Positions 4,811 to 55,871 of a DNA stretch of 60,306 bases are shown piece after piece. The stretch comes from Chloroflexota bacterium (GTDB taxonomy: Bacteria; Chloroflexota; Limnocylindria; P2-11E). The notes under the pieces were generated by a model. The model did not search any database and was not told where the DNA came from. It saw only the letters and a program-made list of their open reading frames with translations. The position numbers and the translations under genes were made by a program. The stretch covers positions 1-60,306 of the forward strand of contig JACQAT010000022.1 of NCBI GenBank assembly GCA_016194865.1. The letters are read 5' to 3'. Numbering within the stretch: the first letter of the stretch is position 1; each line of letters starts with the position of its first letter.

Positions 4811-6976
4811 ATGGCCGACCGCCTGCGTTTGGCGCTGGTCTTCCACCAGCACCAGCCGGCCGGGAACTTCCCGAATGTGTACCAAGAAGTGACCGAGCGC
4901 GCGTATGCGCCGCTCGTGGCCGCTCTCTATCGGCATCCCGAAGTGAAGGCGACCCTCCACTTCTCGGGCCCGCTCCTGGACTGGCTCGAGGCGAACCGCC
5001 CGGACGTCATCGGCGACCTTGGCGATCTCCTCAAGCGCGGTCAGGTCGAGCTCCTCACCGCCGGCTACTACGAGCCGATCCTCGTCGGCGTCCCGCGCCG
5101 CGACGCGGTCGCGCAGATCCGCGCGCTGACCGAGCGCGTCGTGAGCCTCTTCGGCCACCGTCCGCTGGGCGCATGGCTGACCGAGCGGGTGTGGGAGCCG
5201 CAGCTGCCGTCGCTCCTCGCGGAGGCCGGTGTCGCGTACACGACGCTCGACGAGGAGCACTTCCTCCAGGCGGGCCTGCGGCGCGACGAGCTCGGCGAAT
5301 CGTTCATCACCGAGGACCAGGGCTTCCCGCTCGTGGTCTTCCCCGGCAGCGAGCGCCTGCGCTACCTCATCCCGTTCCGTGACGTGAACCAATCGATCAA
5401 GGAGCTGCGCGAGCGCCGCGAGGCGGGCGCGAAGCTCGTGGTCTACGCGGACGATGGCGAGAAGTTCGGCGCGTGGCCCGGGACGTACCAGCGCGTCCAC
5501 AAGGACGGCTGGCTCGAGGAGTTCTTCACGACGATCATCGCCCAGGCCGAGTGGCTCGAGACGATCACGCTCGAGAACGCCTGGATCTTCAACAAGCCGA
5601 ACCGCCGCGTGTATTTGCCTGGCGGCTCATATCCCGAGATGAGCGAGTGGGCGCTCGATGCGTCCGCGGCGCGGCGCTTCAGCGCGGCGCGCAACGCGCT
5701 CAAGGATGACCAGAGCGCGCTCGTCGTTTCTCCTCCGTGGCGGAACTTCTTCTCGAAGTACCCCGAGTCGAACGCGCTGCACAAGCGGATGCTCATGGTG
5801 TCGGAGGAGCTCGCGCGACGCAGCATCCTCGACAGCTCGCTCGAGGTGCGGCAGGCGCAGCAGAACCTCTGGCGCGCGCAGGGCAACGACGTGTACTGGC
5901 ACGGGGTCTTCGGCGGGCTGTACCTCCCGCACCTGCGCGCCGACGCGTACGGCGGGCTGCTGAAGGCGGAGCGCATCCTCGCCGAGCGCCGTCTCGCCGC
6001 GGGCGAGCAGCGCGACTACGACGTCGACGGGCACGAGGAGTACCTCTTCCGCGGCAACGCGGGGGCGGTGTTCGTGCACGTGCAGGGCGGCACGGTGACC
6101 GAGTGGGATATCTACGCGTCGGCGACGAACCTCGTCGACACGCTGGCGCGCCGCCCTGAGGCGGGGCACGACCAGCTGCGTCGCGCCGAGAAGGCCGGCA
6201 AGGTGAAGGTCGGCAAGGCCACTGAGAAGGATTCGAAGTCGATCCACGAGGTCGTGCGCGCGAAGGAGCGCGGGCTCGTCAAGCTCCTCGAGTACGACCC
6301 CGCGCGCCGCGCGCTCTTCCAGGACAGCTTCCGCGTCGGCCGCGACGAGCCGGTGAACCTGCACGCGCAGATCTACGGGCTCACGCCGCAGCGCGAGGCG
6401 CGCACGGTGAGCCTGATCCTCGAGCCACCGGCGAAGTCGATCGCGTCGGTCGAAGGGCTCGGCATCCGCAAGGACGTCCGCATCGCGGACGAGGGCCTCG
6501 CCGCCGGCGTGCGCTACCGCATCCGCAACGACGGCGAGGAGTCGATCAGCCTCGTGTTCACCAGCGCGTCGAGCTTCGGCCTGCTGTCCGAGGGCAACGC
6601 TCTCGATGTGATCGCGCTCGGCACGCGCAAGACCGGCCCGGGTAAGGAGCTCACGAACCGCAACGTCGGTGAGATCACGATCCATTCCGAGACGCGTCAC
6701 TTCGACGTGACCATCGCGCTCGATCCGCCCGCCGAGGTGACCTCGAAGCCCGTGTACGCGGTCGCGAACTCGGAGGCGGGGTTCGAGCGGCTGTACGAGC
6801 AGACCGAGATCTCCTGCAGCTGGCTCGTCGAGCTCGAGCCCGACGAGCACATGGACCTCGAGGTCCGAGCGACCGCGGTCGGCCAGATGGTCGAGCCGGA
6901 CGTGCAGCGTCCACCGACGCGCCGCCGCAAGGCGACGACGCCCGCGGCGGAGACACCGGTACGCTCCGTGCGGTAG
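4811..6976 (+). CDS. GH57 4-alpha-glucanotransferase / alpha-amylase with DUF1926-type C-terminal domains
   Basis: A 721-aa GH57 enzyme acting on alpha-1,4-glucans. The N-terminus is LALVFHQHQPAGNFPNV. The nucleophile is Glu125 in WLTERVWEP and the acid/base is Asp214 in VYADDGEKFGAWPGT. These positions nearly coincide with E123/D214 of the Thermococcus litoralis glucanotransferase. Residues from about 400 onward form the beta-rich domains seen in that subgroup (HEEYLFRGNAGAVFVH, TEWDIYASATNLVDTLARRPE). It differs from the gene at 2232, so the locus pairs a branching enzyme with a transferase/amylase. The last 25 residues are basic and Thr/Pro-rich and probably disordered. Confidence 0.88.
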   Translation: MADRLRLALVFHQHQPAGNFPNVYQEVTERAYAPLVAALYRHPEVKATLHFSGPLLDWLEANRPDVIGDLGDLLKRGQVELLTAGYYEPILVGVPRRDAVAQIRALTERVVSLFGHRPLGAWLTERVWEPQLPSLLAEAGVAYTTLDEEHFLQAGLRRDELGESFITEDQGFPLVVFPGSERLRYLIPFRDVNQSIKELRERREAGAKLVVYADDGEKFGAWPGTYQRVHKDGWLEEFFTTIIAQAEWLETITLENAWIFNKPNRRVYLPGGSYPEMSEWALDASAARRFSAARNALKDDQSALVVSPPWRNFFSKYPESNALHKRMLMVSEELARRSILDSSLEVRQAQQNLWRAQGNDVYWHGVFGGLYLPHLRADAYGGLLKAERILAERRLAAGEQRDYDVDGHEEYLFRGNAGAVFVHVQGGTVTEWDIYASATNLVDTLARRPEAGHDQLRRAEKAGKVKVGKATEKDSKSIHEVVRAKERGLVKLLEYDPARRALFQDSFRVGRDEPVNLHAQIYGLTPQREARTVSLILEPPAKSIASVEGLGIRKDVRIADEGLAAGVRYRIRNDGEESISLVFTSASSFGLLSEGNALDVIALGTRKTGPGKELTNRNVGEITIHSETRHFDVTIALDPPAEVTSKPVYAVANSEAGFERLYEQTEISCSWLVELEPDEHMDLEVRATAVGQMVEPDVQRPPTRRRKATTPAAETPVRSVR

Positions 6977-46290: not shown

Positions 46291-47358
46291 TTAGGCCCAG
46301 CGGCCTCGCGACACCGCTTCGGCGACGCCCTTCGCGACATCGAGCGTGCGCCCGCTGCCGGCGTCGGCGCCCTTGATGTATCCACCGCGGAATCCCTCGC
46401 GCAGCGCCTTCTCGATCGCGGTGTACGACTCGCGCTCGCCGAGGTGATCGAGCATCAGACCGACCGCGCCCATCGTGCCGACCGGGCTCGCGACGCCCTG
46501 ACCCGTGTACTTCGGGGCCGACCCGTGGATCGGCTCGAATACCGAGACCTTGCCGGGATGGATGTTCCCTGACGCGCCGGTACCGAGACCTCCGACGAGC
46601 GCGGCGCCGAGGTCCGTGAGGATGTCGCCGAAGAGGTTCGTGGTGAGCACGACGTCGAAGCGCTCGGGGTGCTGGACGAACCACATCGACGCGGCATCGA
46701 CATACATGGCGTCGCGCTCGACGTCGGGGTACCCGGCGCCGATCTCGTCCAAGATGGTGCGCCAGAGGCCCTGCACCGGGATGGCGTTCGCCTTGTCCAC
46801 GAGCGTCAGCTTCTTGCGCGGCCGGGCGCGTGCCCGTTCGAACGCGTAACGCGTGACGCGCTCGATGCCCGGTCGCGTGAACGACATCTCGACGCGCGCG
46901 ACCTCGTCCTTCCCGGTGCCCGTGATCGCGCCCGCGTTCACGTAGACGTCCTCGGTGTTCTCGCGCACGACGAGGATGTCGATGTCCTCCGCCCTCTTGC
47001 CCTTGAGAGGGCAGAGCCGCTCGTCGTAGAGGACCAGCGGGCGGAGGTTCACGTAGAGGTCGAGGCCGATGCGGAGCCCGATGATGATGTCGCGCTCCAT
47101 CATCCCGCGCGGCGCGTCGGGATGGCCGATGGCGCCGAGGAGCACGGCGTCGAACCGGCGAAGGCCCTCGATCATCTGGCGCGTGACGCGCTCCTGGTGC
47201 TCGATGTAACGGGCGCTGCTCCAGTTGACGACTTCCCGGGTGGTGCGGAAGCCGAATCGCGCCTCGGCGGCGTCGAGCACGAGCAGCGCGGCCTCGGTCA
47301 CCTCGGGACCGATGCCGTCGCCGCCGATGACCCCCAGCCGGTACTTCCGCTCTGCGAT
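46291..47358 (-). CDS. leuB: 3-isopropylmalate dehydrogenase-like enzyme (isocitrate/isopropylmalate dehydrogenase family)
   Basis: About 355 aa. An NAD-dependent beta-decarboxylating dehydrogenase with VIGGDGIGPEV at the N-terminus, VVRENTEDVYV, TLVDKANAIPVQGLW, the catalytic/metal Asp region and GSAPKYTGQGVASPVGTM. The RENTED motif is more isocitrate-like, but the neighbouring leuA, leuC and leuD favour LeuB. The first canonical codon (GTG 47301) would remove the nucleotide-binding GDGIGPE loop, and a TAG lies in frame just upstream (47370-47368). Only ATC 47358 (giving MAERKYRLG...) or CTG 47337 can start the full protein. ATC 47358 falls exactly at the predicted transcription start. Confidence 0.82.
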   Translation of the reverse strand: MAERKYRLGVIGGDGIGPEVTEAALLVLDAAEARFGFRTTREVVNWSSARYIEHQERVTRQMIEGLRRFDAVLLGAIGHPDAPRGMMERDIIIGLRIGLDLYVNLRPLVLYDERLCPLKGKRAEDIDILVVRENTEDVYVNAGAITGTGKDEVARVEMSFTRPGIERVTRYAFERARARPRKKLTLVDKANAIPVQGLWRTILDEIGAGYPDVERDAMYVDAASMWFVQHPERFDVVLTTNLFGDILTDLGAALVGGLGTGASGNIHPGKVSVFEPIHGSAPKYTGQGVASPVGTMGAVGLMLDHLGERESYTAIEKALREGFRGGYIKGADAGSGRTLDVAKGVAEAVSRGRWA

Positions 47359-47364
47359 GGGTCG

Positions 47365-47374
47365 ATGCTACTGT
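47365..47374. promoter_or_regulatory. Back-to-back -10 elements for leuB and the regulator leader
   Basis: TAGCAT on the minus strand (47370-47365) ends 6 nt before the leuB ATC. TACTGT on the plus strand (47369-47374) ends 9 nt before the leader peptide ATG at 47384. The hexamers overlap by two bases, linking leuB expression to that of the PucR-like regulator unit. Confidence 0.5.
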
Positions 47375-47383
47375 TACAGGGTC

Positions 47384-47464
47384 ATGCGCGGACTCATCCG
47401 CCTCGCAACGATCTCGAACCTCCCGATGTGTGCCGGGGGGCATTCGTCGCTGGGAGGCGCGTAG
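47384..47464 (+). CDS. Leader peptide (26 aa) of the PucR-like regulator gene
   Basis: ATG 47384 to TAG 47462-47464. The N-terminal part MRGLIRLATISNLPMC alternates Leu and Ile codons (CTC ATC ... CTC ... ATC ... CTC), and the C-terminus is SSLGGA. The last codons contain TGGGAGGC (47451-47458), which is exactly complementary to the 5' arm of the terminator downstream. A ribosome finishing the peptide would cover this segment; one stalled at the Leu/Ile codons would leave it free to form an antiterminator. Confidence 0.6.
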   Translation: MRGLIRLATISNLPMCAGGHSSLGGA

Positions 47465-47492
47465 CGCACAGGTCACATGGCACAGCGGTCGC

Positions 47493-47518
47493 AGAGCCTC
47501 CCACAACAGGGAGGCTCT
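47493..47518 (+). terminator. Attenuator terminator before the PucR-like gene
   Basis: AGAGCCTCCC (47493-47502) pairs over 10 bp with GGGAGGCTCT (47509-47518) around a 6-nt loop, followed by TCTGGTTTC. The 5' arm GCCTCCCA (47496-47503) alternatively pairs with TGGGAGGC at the end of the leader ORF. Confidence 0.6.
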
Positions 47519-47542
47519 TCTGGTTTCTAGAGGAGGAACACG

Positions 47543-48190
47543 GTGGATAGCGCAAGCGTCGTCGCAGTGGCACTCGGATCCAGCGCGGCATCGCTCGGAT
47601 CGCTCCGAGCGGCGGCGACGCGAGCGCTCCCGAACGGCTCCCGCCTGACCCGCAGTCGCGCGGGTGTCGTGGTCGCGCTCGTCCCCGCGATCGAGGGCGA
47701 CATGCGCGAGATCGCGGAGTCCGCGCGTCAGCGCGTGGCCGACGCGCTCGGCGATCCGGAGACCGCCGCGGGCGCGGGCGGCCCGCGCGACACCGCCGTC
47801 GGCGCGCACGTCGCGATGCTGCAGGCGGAGCACGCGCTCGTCGTCGGTCGCGCCATGCGCGGCAGCGGTCGCACCACCGCGTTCCAGGACCTCGGCGCGT
47901 TCTGCTTCGTGCTCGGGCAGCCCACACGCGACATCCGCGACTTCAGCGAGCGCGTCCTCGGCCCGCTCACCGAGGACGACGATCTCGTGCGGACGCTCGA
48001 GGTCTACCTCCAGGCGCACGGCAGCCTGAACGAGGTCGCGCGCAAGCTTTCCCTGCACCGGAACACCGTCCGGCTGCGCCTGCGGCGCATCGCCAAGCTC
48101 ACCGGTGCCGACCTGGCCGACGCGGATCAGCGCCTGGCCCTGCACCTGGCGCTGCTGGGCCGCCAGGCGCTGGAGCAGCTGGCCTCGTAA
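47543..48190 (+). CDS. PucR/CdaR-type helix-turn-helix regulator
   Basis: A 215-aa protein. The C-terminal about 55 residues are a PucR_HTH_30-type domain (YLQAHGSLNEVARKLSLHRNTVRLRLRRI, then LADADQRLALHLALL). The region before it (VGAHVAMLQAEHALVVGRAM; FQDLGAFCFVLG) resembles the GGDEF-like middle domain of CdaR/PucR proteins; the usual N-terminal sensor domain is absent. GTG 47543 has AGGAGG 6 nt upstream. It is placed between leuB and ilvB and has its own attenuator, suggesting a regulator of branched-chain amino acid synthesis whose level follows the amino acid supply. This role is inference. Confidence 0.7.
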   Translation: MDSASVVAVALGSSAASLGSLRAAATRALPNGSRLTRSRAGVVVALVPAIEGDMREIAESARQRVADALGDPETAAGAGGPRDTAVGAHVAMLQAEHALVVGRAMRGSGRTTAFQDLGAFCFVLGQPTRDIRDFSERVLGPLTEDDDLVRTLEVYLQAHGSLNEVARKLSLHRNTVRLRLRRIAKLTGADLADADQRLALHLALLGRQALEQLAS

Positions 48191-48208: not shown

Positions 48209-48238
48209 TTGACGCCAAAGGCTCCGGATGAGTATGGT
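48209..48238 (+). promoter_or_regulatory. Promoter of the ilvB leader (TTGACG-N18-TATGGT)
   Basis: TTGACG at 48209-48214 and TATGGT at 48233-48238 are separated by 18 bp. The predicted start of transcription is about 48245, only 2 nt before the leader peptide ATG at 48247. Confidence 0.65.
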
Positions 48239-48246
48239 CTGACCAG

Positions 48247-48321
48247 ATGAACGGCCGGGGCCTCCTTCCGCTTCTTATCGTCGTCCTCCTTGAGGGGACG
48301 GGAAGGCGCCTGGGAGGGTAG
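48247..48321 (+). CDS. ilv leader peptide (24 aa) with Leu/Ile/Val control codons
   Basis: ATG 48247 to TAG 48319-48321. The centre of the peptide reads LLPLLIVVLL: six Leu, one Ile and two Val in ten codons, the signature of ilv-type leader peptides known from other bacteria. The C-terminus is RRLGG. Its last codons contain TGGGAGG (48311-48317), complementary over 7 bp to the 5' arm of the terminator (48358-48364). It would report charging of all three branched-chain tRNAs by ribosome stalling. Confidence 0.85.
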   Translation: MNGRGLLPLLIVVLLEGTGRRLGG

Positions 48322-48353
48322 CGGCCACACACACGCGACGCGGAACCAGCGAA

Positions 48354-48377
48354 AGAGCCTCCCAACCGGGAGGCTTT
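48354..48377 (+). terminator. Attenuator terminator before ilvB
   Basis: AGCCTCCC (48356-48363) pairs with GGGAGGCT (48368-48375) around the loop AACC, extendable by two further pairs, and is followed by TTTCG. The alternative pairing of the 5' arm with 48311-48317 would prevent it. A 12-base sequence ACACGCGACGCG (48331-48342) between leader and terminator recurs at the identical offset in the aminotransferase leader. Confidence 0.7.
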
Positions 48378-48403: not shown

Positions 48404-50119
48404 ATGGCGATGCCGGCACTTCGCGAAGCGACGGTGACACAGGCCACGACCGCGCGGGGCGCGGACCTGGTCCTGATCGCCCTGCAGCGTGCTGGCACCG
48501 ACGTGGTGTTCGGGTATCCGGGCGGCGCGTGCCTCCCGATCTACGACGCGCTCCCTGACCACCCCTGGCTGAAGCACATCCTCGTGCGCCACGAGCAGGG
48601 CGCCGCGCACATGGCCGATGGCTACGCGCGCGTCGCGGGCCGTCCCGGCGTCGTCATGGTGACGAGCGGTCCCGGCGCGACGAACCTCGTGACCGGCCTC
48701 GCCTCCGCGTACATGGACTCGATCCCGATGATCGCGATCACCGGTCAGGTGTCGACCGCGCTCATGGGACGCGATGCGTTCCAGGAGACCGACGTCATCG
48801 GCATGGTCACGCCGGTCACGAAGCACGCGTTCCTGATCCAGCGCACCGAGGACATCCTTCCCGTGATCGCTCGCGCGTTCCAGGTCTCGATGGAAGGCCG
48901 TCCGGGGCCCGTGGTGGTCGACATCCCGAAGGACGTGCAGATCAGCGAGGGGTCCACGCGCGCGGGCGAGCCGCGCCTGCGTGGCGGCCACGCGATGCGT
49001 GACCTCGACGAGCGTGCCTTCGACGAGGCGGCCGAGCTGCTGGCCAAGGCGCGCAAGCCGATGATCATCGCCGGTCACGGCGTGCGGATCGGGCGCGCGC
49101 ACGCGGGCCTGCGCGAGCTGGCGGAGCGCCTCGACGCGCCGGTCGCGATGACCCTGCTAGGCATCGGCGTGATCCCCGACGAGCATCCGCTCGCGGCCGG
49201 CATGATCGGCATGCACGGCTCGCCTCGCACCAACCGCGCGATCAACGCCGCGGACGTGATCCTCGGGATCGGCCTGCGCTTCGACGACCGCGTGACCGGC
49301 AAGCTGTCGGCCTTCGCGCCGAACGCGAAGATCATCCACATCGACATCGACGAGACGCAGATCGGCAAGAACGTGCCGACCGCGATCGGGATCGCCGCCG
49401 ACTCCAAGTCCGCCATCGACGCGCTGCTCGCGCGCGTCCAGAAGAAGACCCACCCGGAGTGGCGCGCCGCCCTCGACGCGGACCGCGCCAAGCCGAAGCT
49501 CGCCCAGTTCGAGGACCGCATGGAGCTCGCCCCTCGGCCGGTCGTGCGCGCGATCCGCGAGATCGCGAGCCCCGACGCGTACTTCGTCGCGGACGTGGGT
49601 CAGCACCAGATGTGGGCCGCGCAGCACCTCGGCTTCACCGATCCGGACCGCTTCCTGACGTCCGGCGGCCTCGGCGCGATGGGCTACGCGCTGCCGGCCG
49701 CGCTCGGTGCGCAGGTCGGCGCGCCGGACAAGGAGGTCTGGGCGCTGGTCGGCGACGGCGGCGCGCAGATGACGATCCAGGAGATCGGCACCGCGGTCCA
49801 GGAGGACCTGCCGGTGAAGATGATCATCCTCAACAACGGCTACCTCGGCATGGTGCGGCAGTGGCAGCAGCTGTTCTTCAACGGCCGCATCTCGCAGACG
49901 CCGATCACCAGCCCCGACTACGTCAAGCTCGCCGACGCGTACGGCGCGCGCGGCTTCACCGTCGAGCGCAGAGGGGAGCTGCGCCCGGCGCTCGAAGCCG
50001 CGAAGCGCGCCACCGGGCCCGTCATCGTCGACGTGCGCATCGAGCGCGAGGCCAACGTGTGGCCGATCGTGCCGCCGGGCGGCGCGAACGCGGATCTCAT
50101 CGAGGGGCCGAGCTCGTGA
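48404..50119 (+). CDS. ilvB: Acetolactate synthase, large (catalytic) subunit
   Basis: A 571-aa thiamine-diphosphate enzyme condensing pyruvate with pyruvate or 2-oxobutyrate. It has VRHEQGAAHMADGYARVAG with the cofactor-activating Glu (about residue 64), SGPGATNLVTG, FQETDVIGMVTPVTKH, the FAD-domain motif and the ThDP motif VGDGGAQMTIQEIGTA through LNNGYLGMVRQWQQLF. The MVRQWQ segment is typical of true AHAS rather than other ThDP enzymes. RBS AGGGGAG at 48388-48394. First structural gene of ilvB-ilvN-ilvC-orf62-leuA-ilvD. Confidence 0.96.
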   Translation: MAMPALREATVTQATTARGADLVLIALQRAGTDVVFGYPGGACLPIYDALPDHPWLKHILVRHEQGAAHMADGYARVAGRPGVVMVTSGPGATNLVTGLASAYMDSIPMIAITGQVSTALMGRDAFQETDVIGMVTPVTKHAFLIQRTEDILPVIARAFQVSMEGRPGPVVVDIPKDVQISEGSTRAGEPRLRGGHAMRDLDERAFDEAAELLAKARKPMIIAGHGVRIGRAHAGLRELAERLDAPVAMTLLGIGVIPDEHPLAAGMIGMHGSPRTNRAINAADVILGIGLRFDDRVTGKLSAFAPNAKIIHIDIDETQIGKNVPTAIGIAADSKSAIDALLARVQKKTHPEWRAALDADRAKPKLAQFEDRMELAPRPVVRAIREIASPDAYFVADVGQHQMWAAQHLGFTDPDRFLTSGGLGAMGYALPAALGAQVGAPDKEVWALVGDGGAQMTIQEIGTAVQEDLPVKMIILNNGYLGMVRQWQQLFFNGRISQTPITSPDYVKLADAYGARGFTVERRGELRPALEAAKRATGPVIVDVRIEREANVWPIVPPGGANADLIEGPSS

Positions 50120-52773: not shown

Positions 52774-54449
52774 CCGACGCGAGCGAGGACACGCGGGCCA
52801 ATAGCCGCGTCCTCGTCGATGGACCGGATCGCGCGCCCGCGCGCGCGATGCTGCGCGGCGCGGGCTACAGCGCGGAGGATCTCAAGAGGCCGCTGATCGG
52901 TGTCGCGCACAGCTGGATCGAGGTCATGCCCTGCACCATGCACCTGCGCGAGATCGCGAAATGGGTGAAGGAGGGGATCCGCGAGGCGGGCGGCACGCCG
53001 GTCGAGTGCAACACGATCGCCGTCTCCGACGGCATCGCGATGGGCACCGAGGGCATGAAGTCGTCGCTCATCTCGCGTGAGATCGTCGCGGACTCCATCG
53101 AGCTCGTGGTCCGCGGTCATCTCCTGGACGGACTCGTCGCGATCAGCGGCTGCGACAAGACCATCCCCGGCTGCGTGATGGCGCTCGCACGGCTCGACGT
53201 CCCGGGGCTGATGCTCTACGGCGGCTCGATCATGCCGGGCCGCTTCGAGGGGAAGGACGTCACGATCGGCGACGTCTTCGAGGCCGTCGGCAGGCACGCC
53301 GCGGGCACCATGAGCGACGCGCGCCTCGAGGAGCTCGAGAGCGTGGCCTGCCCCGGCGCGGGCGCGTGCGGCGGCCAGTTCACCGCGAACACGATGGCGA
53401 CCGCCTTCGAGGCGCTCGGCATCTCGCCCGCCGGCTCGAGCGGCGTGCCCGCGCTCGATCCGCGGCGCCGCGAGGTCGCGCGCGCGGCCGGCCGGCGCGT
53501 CATGACGCTGCTTCGCGAAGGCGTGAAGCCGCGCTCGATCATCACGCGTCCGGCGCTCGAGAACGCGATCGCCGCGGTGATGGCGACCGGTGGCTCGACG
53601 AACGCGGTGCTGCATCTGCTGGCCGTCGCGCGCGACGCGGGCGTGGACCTCACGCTCGCCGACTTCGACCGCATCAGCGCGCGCACCCCGCTGCTCGCGG
53701 ACATGAAGCCGTGGGGCCGCTTCACCGCGCCCGACATGGATCACGCGGGCGGCATCATGCTCGTCCTGCGGCGTCTTCTTGACGCGGGGCTCCTCAACGC
53801 GGACGCGCCGACCGTGAGCGGCCGCACCATCGGCGAAGAGGCGCGCGACGCGAAGGAGACCAGGGGCCAGGAGGTCGTGAAGGCGCTGGCGACCCCGATC
53901 GCCGCGAGCGGCGGCATGGTCATCCTGGGCGGCTCCCTCGCGCCCGAGGGCTGCGTCATGAAGGTGGCGGGCCACCTCATGAGCGCGCGTACCTTCACCG
54001 CGCGCGTCTTCGAGTGCGAGGAGGACGCGTTCGCGGCGGTCGTGGGTGGGAAGATCAGAGAGGGAGACGTGCTCGTCATCCGCTACGAGGGGCCGAAGGG
54101 CGGACCCGGCATGCGCGAGATGCTCGGGGTCACGGGCGCGATCGTGGGCGCCGGTCTGGGGGAGAAGGTCGCGCTCATCACCGATGGGCGCTTCTCGGGC
54201 GCGACCCACGGTCACATGGTCGGCCACGTCGCGCCGGAGGCCGCGACCGGCGGGCCCATCGCGCTCGTGCGTGACGGCGACGCGATCGTCGTCGATCCCG
54301 TGAAGCGGCGGCTCGATCTCGACGTACCCGCCGGCGAGCTCGCGAGGCGCAGGGCGTCGTGGCGCGAGCCGGCGCCTCGCTATCGGACGGGCGCGCTCGC
54401 GAAGTACGCGAAGCTGGTGTCCAGCGCCGCTGACGGCGCGGTCACTTGA
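52770..54449 (+). CDS. ilvD: Dihydroxy-acid dehydratase
   Basis: A 559-aa iron-sulfur dehydratase forming 2-oxoisovalerate and 2-oxo-3-methylvalerate. It has [20 protein letters not shown], cluster Cys residues in SGCDKTIPG and [40 protein letters not shown] and the C-terminal [21 protein letters not shown]. Starts with GTG in a GTGA overlap with leuA. Last gene of the ilv operon. Its TGA is embedded in the -35 box of the next promoter. Confidence 0.96.
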
Positions 54450-54475
54450 CCGCCGCGAGCGCCGTTGGGTACAGT
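54446..54475 (+). promoter_or_regulatory. Promoter of the aminotransferase leader (TTGACC-N18-TACAGT)
   Basis: TTGACC at 54446-54451 (overlapping the ilvD stop codon) and TACAGT at 54470-54475, spacer 18 bp, the same as for the ilvB promoter. Predicted transcription start about 54482, 3 nt before GTG 54485. Confidence 0.65.
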
Positions 54476-54484
54476 GAACGGGAC

Positions 54485-54559
54485 GTGATGTACGGCCTCC
54501 CGATCCCGCCGGCCCCGATCAGCCCCATTCTCGGGGCTCGTATCGCTTTGGGGGGATAG
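54485..54559 (+). CDS. Ile-rich leader peptide (24 aa) of the aminotransferase-ilvA-leuCD operon
   Basis: GTG 54485 and ATG 54488 are in frame; TAG at 54557-54559. The peptide reads YGLPIPPAPISPILGARI before ending ALGG: four Ile, three Leu and several Pro codons. Its last codons contain GGGGGG (54550-54555), which can pair with CCTCCC of the terminator 5' arm (one G-U). The operon it heads includes threonine deaminase (isoleucine branch) and leuCD, matching Ile/Leu sensing. Confidence 0.75.
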   Translation: MMYGLPIPPAPISPILGARIALGG

Positions 54560-54593
54560 CAGGCAGGTACACGCGACGCGCACAGCAGCCAGA

Positions 54594-54625
54594 AGGCCTC
54601 CCGGAACGGGAGGCCTCTTCATTTT
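54594..54625 (+). terminator. Attenuator terminator before the aminotransferase gene
   Basis: AGGCCTCCCG (54594-54603) pairs over 10 bp with CGGGAGGCCT (54607-54616), loop GAA, followed by CTTCATTTT. ACACGCGACGCG (54569-54580) lies 10 nt after the leader stop and 14 nt before the stem, exactly as in the ilvB leader. Confidence 0.7.
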
Positions 54626-54641: not shown

Positions 54642-55871
54642 ATGGCGATGACGACACCGATGGTGAGCCGCGACCCGCAGAGCAACGATCGCGACCGTTT
54701 GAACGCCGTGCATGGCTCGTTCATCGACGAGACCATCGGCATCGTCGCCCGGCAGACGCGCGACACCGTCTCCTTCGCCGTCGGCGCGCCGGCGCACGAG
54801 GCGCTCGACCTCGTTGGGGCCGCCGACCTGGTCTCGACCGTCATCCATCGCGAAGGCGCGAGCGCCCTCGGCTACGCGATCACCGAGGGGGAGCCCGAGC
54901 TGCGCGACATCGTCGCGCACGATGCGCGCGCGCGCGGCCTCAACGTCAAGCACGAGGACGTGCTCGTGAGCGCCGGCGCCCTGCAGGCCGTCGATCTCGT
55001 GTGCCGCGTGTTCCTCAAGCCAGGCGACGTGGTCGTCGCCGAGTCGCCCGGATTCGCGAACGCGCTCTCCGCGTTCCGCAACCACGGCGCGCGCGTGCTC
55101 GAGGTCCCCGTGGACAGCGAGGGCCTCGACGTCGCCGCCGCGGCTCGCCTGCTCCGCGCCGGTGGCATCCGGCCGCGGATGTTCTTCGTGGTCCCGAACT
55201 TCCAGAACCCGACCGGCGAGACGCTATCGCACGCGCGTCGCGACGCGCTCGTCGCGCTGGCCGCGAGCCACGGCGCCATCGTCGTCGAGGACGATCCCTA
55301 CGGCCTGCTGCGCTACCGCGGCAAGGAGATCCCCGCGATCGCCGCGCTTCATCCCCACAGCGGCGTCGTCAGCATCGGGACCTTCTCCAAGACGTTCCTC
55401 CCGGGCCTGCGCGTCGGCTGGGTCATCAGCGACCACGAGGTCATCAAGCGGATGGCCGCGGCGAAGCAGACGATGGACTCGAGCACCGGGACGCTCGGGC
55501 AGCGCGTCGTCGTCGAGTTCCATCGCCGCGGCGGCGTCGCGGCGCACGTCGACAAGCTGCGCGCGCTCTACGGCGCGAAGCAGGCACGCGGTCGCGCCGC
55601 GCTCCAACGCGTCTTCGGCGACGCGAAGGGGGTGTCGTGGAACGATCCCCAGGGGGGGTTCTACTTCTGGCTCAAGCTGCCGCAGGGCATGAGCGCACGC
55701 ACGCTGCTCGGCCTCGCGCTCGAAGAGGGCGTTGCGTTCGTGCCGGGTGACGCGTTCGCGATCGAGCAGGATCACGGCTCGGCGCTGCGGTTCTCGATCA
55801 GCGCGCCGACGCTCGACCGGATCGACGAGGGCGTGACGCGTCTGCGTCGCGCGTACGACCGGCTCGCATGA
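54642..55871 (+). CDS. PLP-dependent aminotransferase (fold type I, ARO8/LysN-like)
   Basis: A 409-aa class I/II aminotransferase. It has VTFAVGAPAHEALDL-type N-terminal binding region, GYAITEGEPELRDIVAHDAR, FFVVPNFQNPTGETLS, VVEDDPYGLLRYRG and the PLP-binding Lys in SIGTFSKTFLPGLRVGWV (about residue 250). The subgroup acts on 2-aminoadipate, aromatic or branched-chain amino acids. No ilvE is in the window, and an Ile-rich leader heads this operon, so final transamination to Ile/Leu/Val is a reasonable inference. RBS GGAGAGGAGGG upstream of ATG 54642. Confidence 0.85.
   Translation: MAMTTPMVSRDPQSNDRDRLNAVHGSFIDETIGIVARQTRDTVSFAVGAPAHEALDLVGAADLVSTVIHREGASALGYAITEGEPELRDIVAHDARARGLNVKHEDVLVSAGALQAVDLVCRVFLKPGDVVVAESPGFANALSAFRNHGARVLEVPVDSEGLDVAAAARLLRAGGIRPRMFFVVPNFQNPTGETLSHARRDALVALAASHGAIVVEDDPYGLLRYRGKEIPAIAALHPHSGVVSIGTFSKTFLPGLRVGWVISDHEVIKRMAAAKQTMDSSTGTLGQRVVVEFHRRGGVAAHVDKLRALYGAKQARGRAALQRVFGDAKGVSWNDPQGGFYFWLKLPQGMSARTLLGLALEEGVAFVPGDAFAIEQDHGSALRFSISAPTLDRIDEGVTRLRRAYDRLA

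Follow-up and report, generated by a model that had tools for sequence, protein, structure and literature searches.

Introduction

Classical amino-acid attenuators (ilvL, leuL, trpL and hisL) and actinobacterial ilvB leaders combine a short leader ORF carrying control codons with mutually exclusive antiterminator and terminator structures, and genes for branched-chain amino acids (BCAA) adjoin them (PMC1262725, PMC10272879). In actinobacterial surveys such leaders are described for genes of enzymes and tRNA synthetases; searched by term, one of these papers (PMC1262725) returned no regulator gene. Few DNA-binding regulators are known under ribosome-mediated attenuation. The main precedent we found is whiB7/wblC of actinomycetes, a transcription-factor gene with uORF-mediated attenuation, a Rho-independent terminator and a reported response to amino-acid starvation (review PMC11550727). 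In Bacillus subtilis, anti-TRAP (rtpA) is likewise a regulator that is made upon shortage of a charged tRNA and relays starvation to biosynthetic genes, but a T-box senses the uncharged tRNA-Trp and the product binds the TRAP protein, not DNA (PMC11255114).

Here we describe a compact PucR-type regulator gene from a Chloroflexota bacterium, located in a stretch of 60,306 nucleotides (hereafter the window). Between 47384 and 47542, directly 5' of this PucR/HTH_30-type gene, lie a 26-codon leader, an 8-bp antiterminator and a 10-bp terminator, and BCAA genes adjoin the locus as in the classical systems. The controlled gene differs, being a transcription factor, and a single GGGAGG/CCTCCC/GGGAGG core serves many pathways. 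The whiB7/wblC genes belong to another regulator family and have an antibiotic-resistance regulon, whereas the leaders described here are rich in BCAA or Cys/Met codons and the neighbours are amino-acid genes. The open-access literature yielded no report of a PucR-family regulator under a leader-peptide attenuator.

Results

Elements of the attenuator and its neighbourhood

An earlier note on this DNA had described the 26-aa leader, the perfect 8-bp antiterminator and the 10-bp terminator, and all three are in the sequence at the positions given there (Table 1). The antiterminator and terminator are mutually exclusive, the strand 47496-47502 being common to both. The terminator folds with -20.7 kcal/mol (z = -4.5) and the antiterminator stretch with z = -2.8. 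The T-rich tail of the terminator (47519-47528, TCTGGTTTCT) is interrupted, and the regulator gene starts with GTG, 3' of its Shine-Dalgarno sequence. Two features set the locus apart from classical attenuators: the leader ATG lies only about 9 nt downstream of the -10 element, and no Rfam family was matched up to E=1 in positions 40000-60306. A T-box riboswitch was rejected on the same search. Since transcription would start some 6-7 nt after the -10 element, the RNA probably begins a few bases 5' of the ATG and the regulator leader transcript is probably nearly leaderless. The -35 element is weak in the window; relatives have TTGAC at the same place.

In most leaders the predicted fold includes a leader-internal hairpin; 87% of the GGGAGG bases have an upstream partner (mean z -1.4; -1.8 over 21 PucR leaders). 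The pairing of region 1 with region 2 was no better than in shuffled sequence, reaching P<=0.05 in 2 of 61 leaders, and we therefore make no claim of a protector for this hairpin.

Table 1. Coordinates of the regulator attenuator, the neighbouring genes and the two other attenuators in the window.
Feature	Position	Strand	Basis
leuB, divergent from regulator	46291..47301	-	Pfam Iso_dh; pair with regulator conserved in relatives
-10 element of leader promoter, TACTGT	47369..47374	+	sequence; promoter comparison with relatives
Leader peptide ORF, 26 aa, MRGLIRLATISNLPMCAGGHSSLGGA	47384..47464	+	ATG 47384, TAG 47462-47464; counterparts before 23/23 homologous genes
5' arm CGCCTC of leader-internal hairpin (region 1)	47399..47404	+	predicted fold only, z = -1.6; partner GAGGCG 47455-47460 (region 2)
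Antiterminator 5' strand TGGGAGGC (region 2), within leader ORF	47451..47458	+	sequence; covariation; 8 perfect pairs with 3' strand
Antiterminator 3' strand GCCTCCCA (region 3), also part of terminator 5' arm	47496..47503	+	sequence, fold, covariation
Intrinsic terminator hairpin (regions 3 and 4), 10 bp, AGAGCCTCCC-ACAACA-GGGAGGCTCT	47493..47518	+	sequence, fold, covariation
Shine-Dalgarno GAGGAGG of regulator gene	47530..47536	+	sequence
Compact PucR-type regulator, 215 aa	47543..48190	+	Pfam PF13556 E=3e-21, PF17853 E=5e-5
ilvB promoter TTGACG-N18-TATGGT	48209..48238	+	sequence
ilvB leader MNGRGLLPLLIVVLLEGTGRRLGG	48248..48322	+	sequence
GGGAGG antiterminator strand, ilvB attenuator	48312..48317	+	sequence
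Terminator hairpin of ilvB attenuator, AGCCTCCC-AACC-GGGAGGCT	48356..48375	+	sequence
ilvB, acetolactate synthase large subunit	48404..50119	+	TIGR00118 E=5e-209
Aminotransferase promoter TTGACC-N18-TACAGT	54446..54475	+	sequence
Aminotransferase leader MYGLPIPPAPISPILGARIALGG	54488..54559	+	sequence
Terminator hairpin, aminotransferase attenuator	54594..54616	+	sequence
PLP-dependent aminotransferase, class I/II	54642..55871	+	profile matches

In the window, leuB on the - strand is followed on the + strand by the PucR-like gene, ilvB, ilvN, ilvC, a leuA/cimA-like gene, ilvD, the aminotransferase gene, ilvA, leuC and leuD (ilvD, leuC and leuD named from their translations). The leaders of ilvB and of the aminotransferase have the same promoter-to-ATG geometry as the regulator leader, but good promoters. 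The aminotransferase attenuator (54488-54616) has a Pro/Ile/Leu leader whose Pro codons fall in an RNA hairpin and perhaps have a structural role. We did not take the enrichment of Pro in the leaders of aminotransferase and thrC genes as a signal, since the Pro codons form a CCCC/GGGG hairpin. The leuB reading frame continues upstream to about 47363, its codons extending back to a TAG beside the divergent promoter. It has no in-frame ATG, GTG or TTG at the expected start (47301-47384, - strand) and may use an unusual one, either ATC near 47363 or an internal CTG.

Conservation in the order

Among 29 draft genomes of the order, that of the window included, 20 carry homologous genes for the compact regulator, 23 in total. 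Other matches of the regulator search (longer remote PucR proteins, a fragment and a weak partial match) were left out. A leader ORF and a CCTCCC-type terminator precede all 23 genes, directly so in 22. A small ORF sits between the attenuator and the regulator gene in genome G001, and the terminator hairpin has a variant form in genomes G023 and G024. The neighbour pair of leuB and the regulator gene is conserved in relatives.

Covariation was computed on the 21 regulator attenuators with an exact core; these sequences are related, and the counts that follow are not independent events. In the antiterminator 95.2% of cells are paired, compared to at most 63% when the strands are slid, and the covariation score is 0.195 compared to 0.116 in shuffles (0/500). 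Ten sequences have C-G at the outer antiterminator pair and nine have U-A. In the terminator 97.6% of cells are paired, with a covariation score of 0.201 compared to 0.134 in shuffles (0/500). Compensatory changes are thus present in both alternative helices. Together with the same arrangement at 23/23 homologous genes in 20 genomes, they exclude chance as the origin of the attenuator. The proposal that the PucR-like gene at 47543 stands under its own ribosome-dependent attenuator is supported, the arrangement being conserved through the order.

GC-rich terminators with such a sequence are frequent where genomic GC content is high, and the hairpin could be an ordinary terminator that takes no part in switching, for example one that serves an upstream gene. 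However, leuB, the neighbour upstream, lies on the opposite strand, which leaves no + strand gene there that needs the hairpin, and the complementary strand inside the leader ORF is conserved with covariation. We already disfavour this explanation and consider it highly improbable.

The regulator protein

The C-terminal HTH_30 domain of the regulator matches PF13556 at 75 bits against a cutoff of 27. The N-terminal GGDEF-like part scores 23.9 bits with PF17853, just below the cutoff of 24.5. A C-terminal HTH_30 with a remnant GGDEF-like part is common to PucR/CdaR-type regulators such as AdeR and CdaR. In contrast to the NCBIfam profiles of those longer regulators (about 385-470 aa), which match through their C-terminal parts only, the window protein has 215 aa, and the long N-terminal sensor region typical of the family is not present. 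No full-length orthologue was found in 44 mostly near-complete genomes from the rest of the class, and a search of genome contigs returned only remote actinobacterial HTH matches. The window protein forms a long branch in the regulator tree. Its recognition helix reads LHRNTVR-L, whereas the other proteins have LHRNTVR-Q (or -H); this Gln-to-Leu difference would be consistent with an altered DNA specificity.

Codon content of the leaders

A fixed rule selected the leaders: the start had to lie 52-86 nt 5' of GGGAGG, with preference given to ATG. Their residue content was compared with that of the downstream proteins. In 12 single-copy orthologous regulator leaders, with that of the window left out, Ile, Val and Leu account for 103 of 232 residues (P=7e-15). 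Since these codons dominate, BCAA are likely a signal for the regulator attenuator across the order. Cys and Met are also enriched in the same 12 leaders.

Two kinds of regulator paralogue were found in genus g3. Leaders of the BCAA kind are pure BCAA, for example MAQPIVIVVPVLVLATSQTALGGGS, with Ile, Val and Leu at 39 of 79 residues in four leaders. The four leaders of the Cys/Met kind, for example MKRCWCPMAMRETRRACVCAAGPTVSGGGV, have Cys at 16 of 95 residues (P=3e-14) and no BCAA enrichment. The Cys/Met copies form one supported clade in the tree, and the paralogue beside leuB is of this kind.

In the window leader itself, only 5 of the 19 residues counted are Leu or Ile (P=0.4), and control codons do not occur in a run. 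It resembles the orthologous regulator leaders beyond shuffles (P=0.003) and the leaders of ilv enzymes with P=0.017. With so weak a bias of its own, a Leu/Ile reading of this leader is credible only through its orthologues, and from these BCAA sensing in the window species appears likely. The supply of Leu and Ile had been named earlier as the signal. This fits the orthologous leaders in so far as BCAA codons dominate them; it is too narrow given their Cys/Met enrichment and the Cys/Met-rich paralogue.

The weak codon bias, the weak -35 element, the interrupted T tail and the long branch of the protein would also fit a leader that has lost its amino-acid specificity in the window species, so that a fixed partial terminator sets the regulator level. 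Against such a loss, the leader frame, both helices and their spacing are intact, with eight perfect antiterminator pairs and a 10-bp terminator, and the leader's likeness to its orthologues exceeds that of shuffles. We regard this explanation as unlikely.

A shared attenuator module in amino-acid operons

The pattern GGGAGG-N20-50-CCTCCC-N3-12-GGGAGG has 62 matches in the order, and its reversed control has 3. Across 148 genomes from the rest of the class it occurs at about control level, and the matches shown there are unlike the module. In the order the module precedes ilvB, an ilvB-like TPP enzyme, thrC, hisZ, ilvE, aminotransferase, leuA and gltB genes as well as the regulator gene. The strict pattern undercounts it, since the ilvB attenuators of genus g6 (L042, L048, L049 and L050) have CCTCTC/GAGAGG terminators. 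GGGAGG and CCTCCC are spaced 35-48 nt apart in 65 of 66 attenuators, and the same two flanking pairs covary over all 66 (P=0.0004 and 0.0065).

The hisZ leaders have His at 14 of 65 residues (P=1e-10). Leu, Ile and Val codons occur in the leaders before ilvB, the TPP enzyme and ilvE, and Leu codons before leuA. These pathway-matched codons fit amino-acid-specific stalling of the ribosome.

This bears on the possibility that the regulator attenuator is a general sensor of translation stress, as in whiB7/wblC, in which whatever slows the leader ribosome, such as a ribosome-targeting antibiotic, would open the switch and the identity of the amino acid would be minor. In whiB7/wblC there is a precedent, the uORF attenuator of a regulator gene answering both antibiotics and amino-acid starvation (PMC11550727), and the codon bias of the window leader is weak. 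However, the strong Ile/Val/Leu enrichment in the orthologous leaders and that of Cys/Met in the paralogue, the His codons in the same module on hisZ, and the neighbouring leuB and ilvB genes all speak for specific amino acids. A general stress sensor seems to us rather improbable.

Several further observations were made on the module. The thrC leaders (L045 (8097, -), L046 (3747), L060, L088, L090 and others) are rich in Met (27 of 161 residues, P=9e-23) with Ile, and not in Thr; in genus g3 Met dominates them (MAQRISMAMPMAPMAGPATRLGG). A conserved ORF of 64-74 aa (MDPRRELARRLARLGMHFEGERLDHAERIVHLHAPHHGSLSDLVLMTICVEAYRKADVDLPAWV) lies directly 3' of such an attenuator in L077 (1610), L098 and L039 (attenuator at 6611), and the ORF between the attenuator and the PucR-like gene in G001 is similar to it. 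In several genomes, from genera g2 and g3, the position that ilvB has in the window genome and in genera g6 and g8 is taken by a divergent TPP enzyme of about 590 aa, itself attenuated. This enzyme scores far below acetolactate synthase cutoffs and adjoins ilvC and/or the PucR-like gene (L043:10580-12352; same gene in L037, L040, L041, L044, L045 and L046).

A candidate operator

In relatives, the palindrome GTGCA-N3-TGCAC is found upstream of many attenuated operons. Its centre lies 50-53 or 61-64 nt before the leader ATG, two positions one helical turn apart, and just 5' of the -35 element, a placement as for an activator site. With a strict downstream TTGAC the palindrome has 19 matches in the 29 genomes of the order compared to 3 in controls, and all 19 precede attenuated thrC, hisZ, TPP or ilvB genes. 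In the 44 mostly near-complete genomes from the rest of the class there were 3 matches compared to 13 in controls, and all 3 look intragenic. A looser pattern, TGCANNNTGCAC-N12-32-TTG, showed no excess (14 compared to 27 for the control), and the signal thus depends on the strict form at its fixed position. In the regulator promoters the half-site TGTGC[AG] occurs in 11 of 23 (shuffles: mean 2.7, at most 7/23), mainly between the -35 and -10 elements or across the start, a placement that would suit autorepression. With the full operator PWM, only 2 of these 23 promoters reached P<=0.05.

From this co-occurrence and position, GTGCA-N3-TGCAC may be the operator of the PucR-like regulator. Its presence before BCAA, Thr and His operons in relatives suggests a wider amino-acid regulon. 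Binding of the regulator at 47365, 48209 and 54446 had been proposed and found no support here. All three are core promoter positions (48209 and 54446 being -35 hexamers) at which we found no shared operator, and the candidate operator of relatives was not found convincingly at the window's three promoters or in the rest of the 60 kb.

Discussion

Collectively, these results suggest that the regulator gene is, with good probability, controlled by a ribosome-mediated transcription attenuator that follows the classical trp/ilv logic and acts here on a transcription-factor gene. We infer the following switch from the conserved elements. Transcription would begin a few bases before the leader ATG. 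When BCAA aminoacyl-tRNAs, and probably those of Cys and Met too, are plentiful, the ribosome would reach the stop codon and cover TGGGAGGC; GCCTCCC would then pair with GGGAGGC, and RNA polymerase would halt at 47518. If the ribosome stalled early in the leader, TGGGAGGC would stay exposed and pair with GCCTCCCA, and transcription would continue into the regulator gene. The regulator would then adjust amino-acid genes, most plausibly by binding beside their promoters.

More tentatively, and at less than even chances, we propose a two-tier amino-acid starvation circuit that would be a bacterial counterpart of the yeast GCN4 logic. In this circuit the compact regulator would be made only when the leader ribosome stalls at BCAA codons (Cys/Met codons for the duplicated copy); it would bind GTGCA-N3-TGCAC, activate amino-acid operons with attenuators of this type, and restrain its own promoter. 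The operator of the window species would have changed in step with the Gln-to-Leu difference in the recognition helix.

The regulator attenuator is conserved across the order and has been duplicated into what appear to be sensors for different amino acids. The system yields testable predictions on its signal, operator and regulon. The regulator attenuator belongs to a system in which a single RNA core serves BCAA, Thr, His and Glu genes, and the starvation signal seems to be relayed to the regulator as well as directly to the enzymes.
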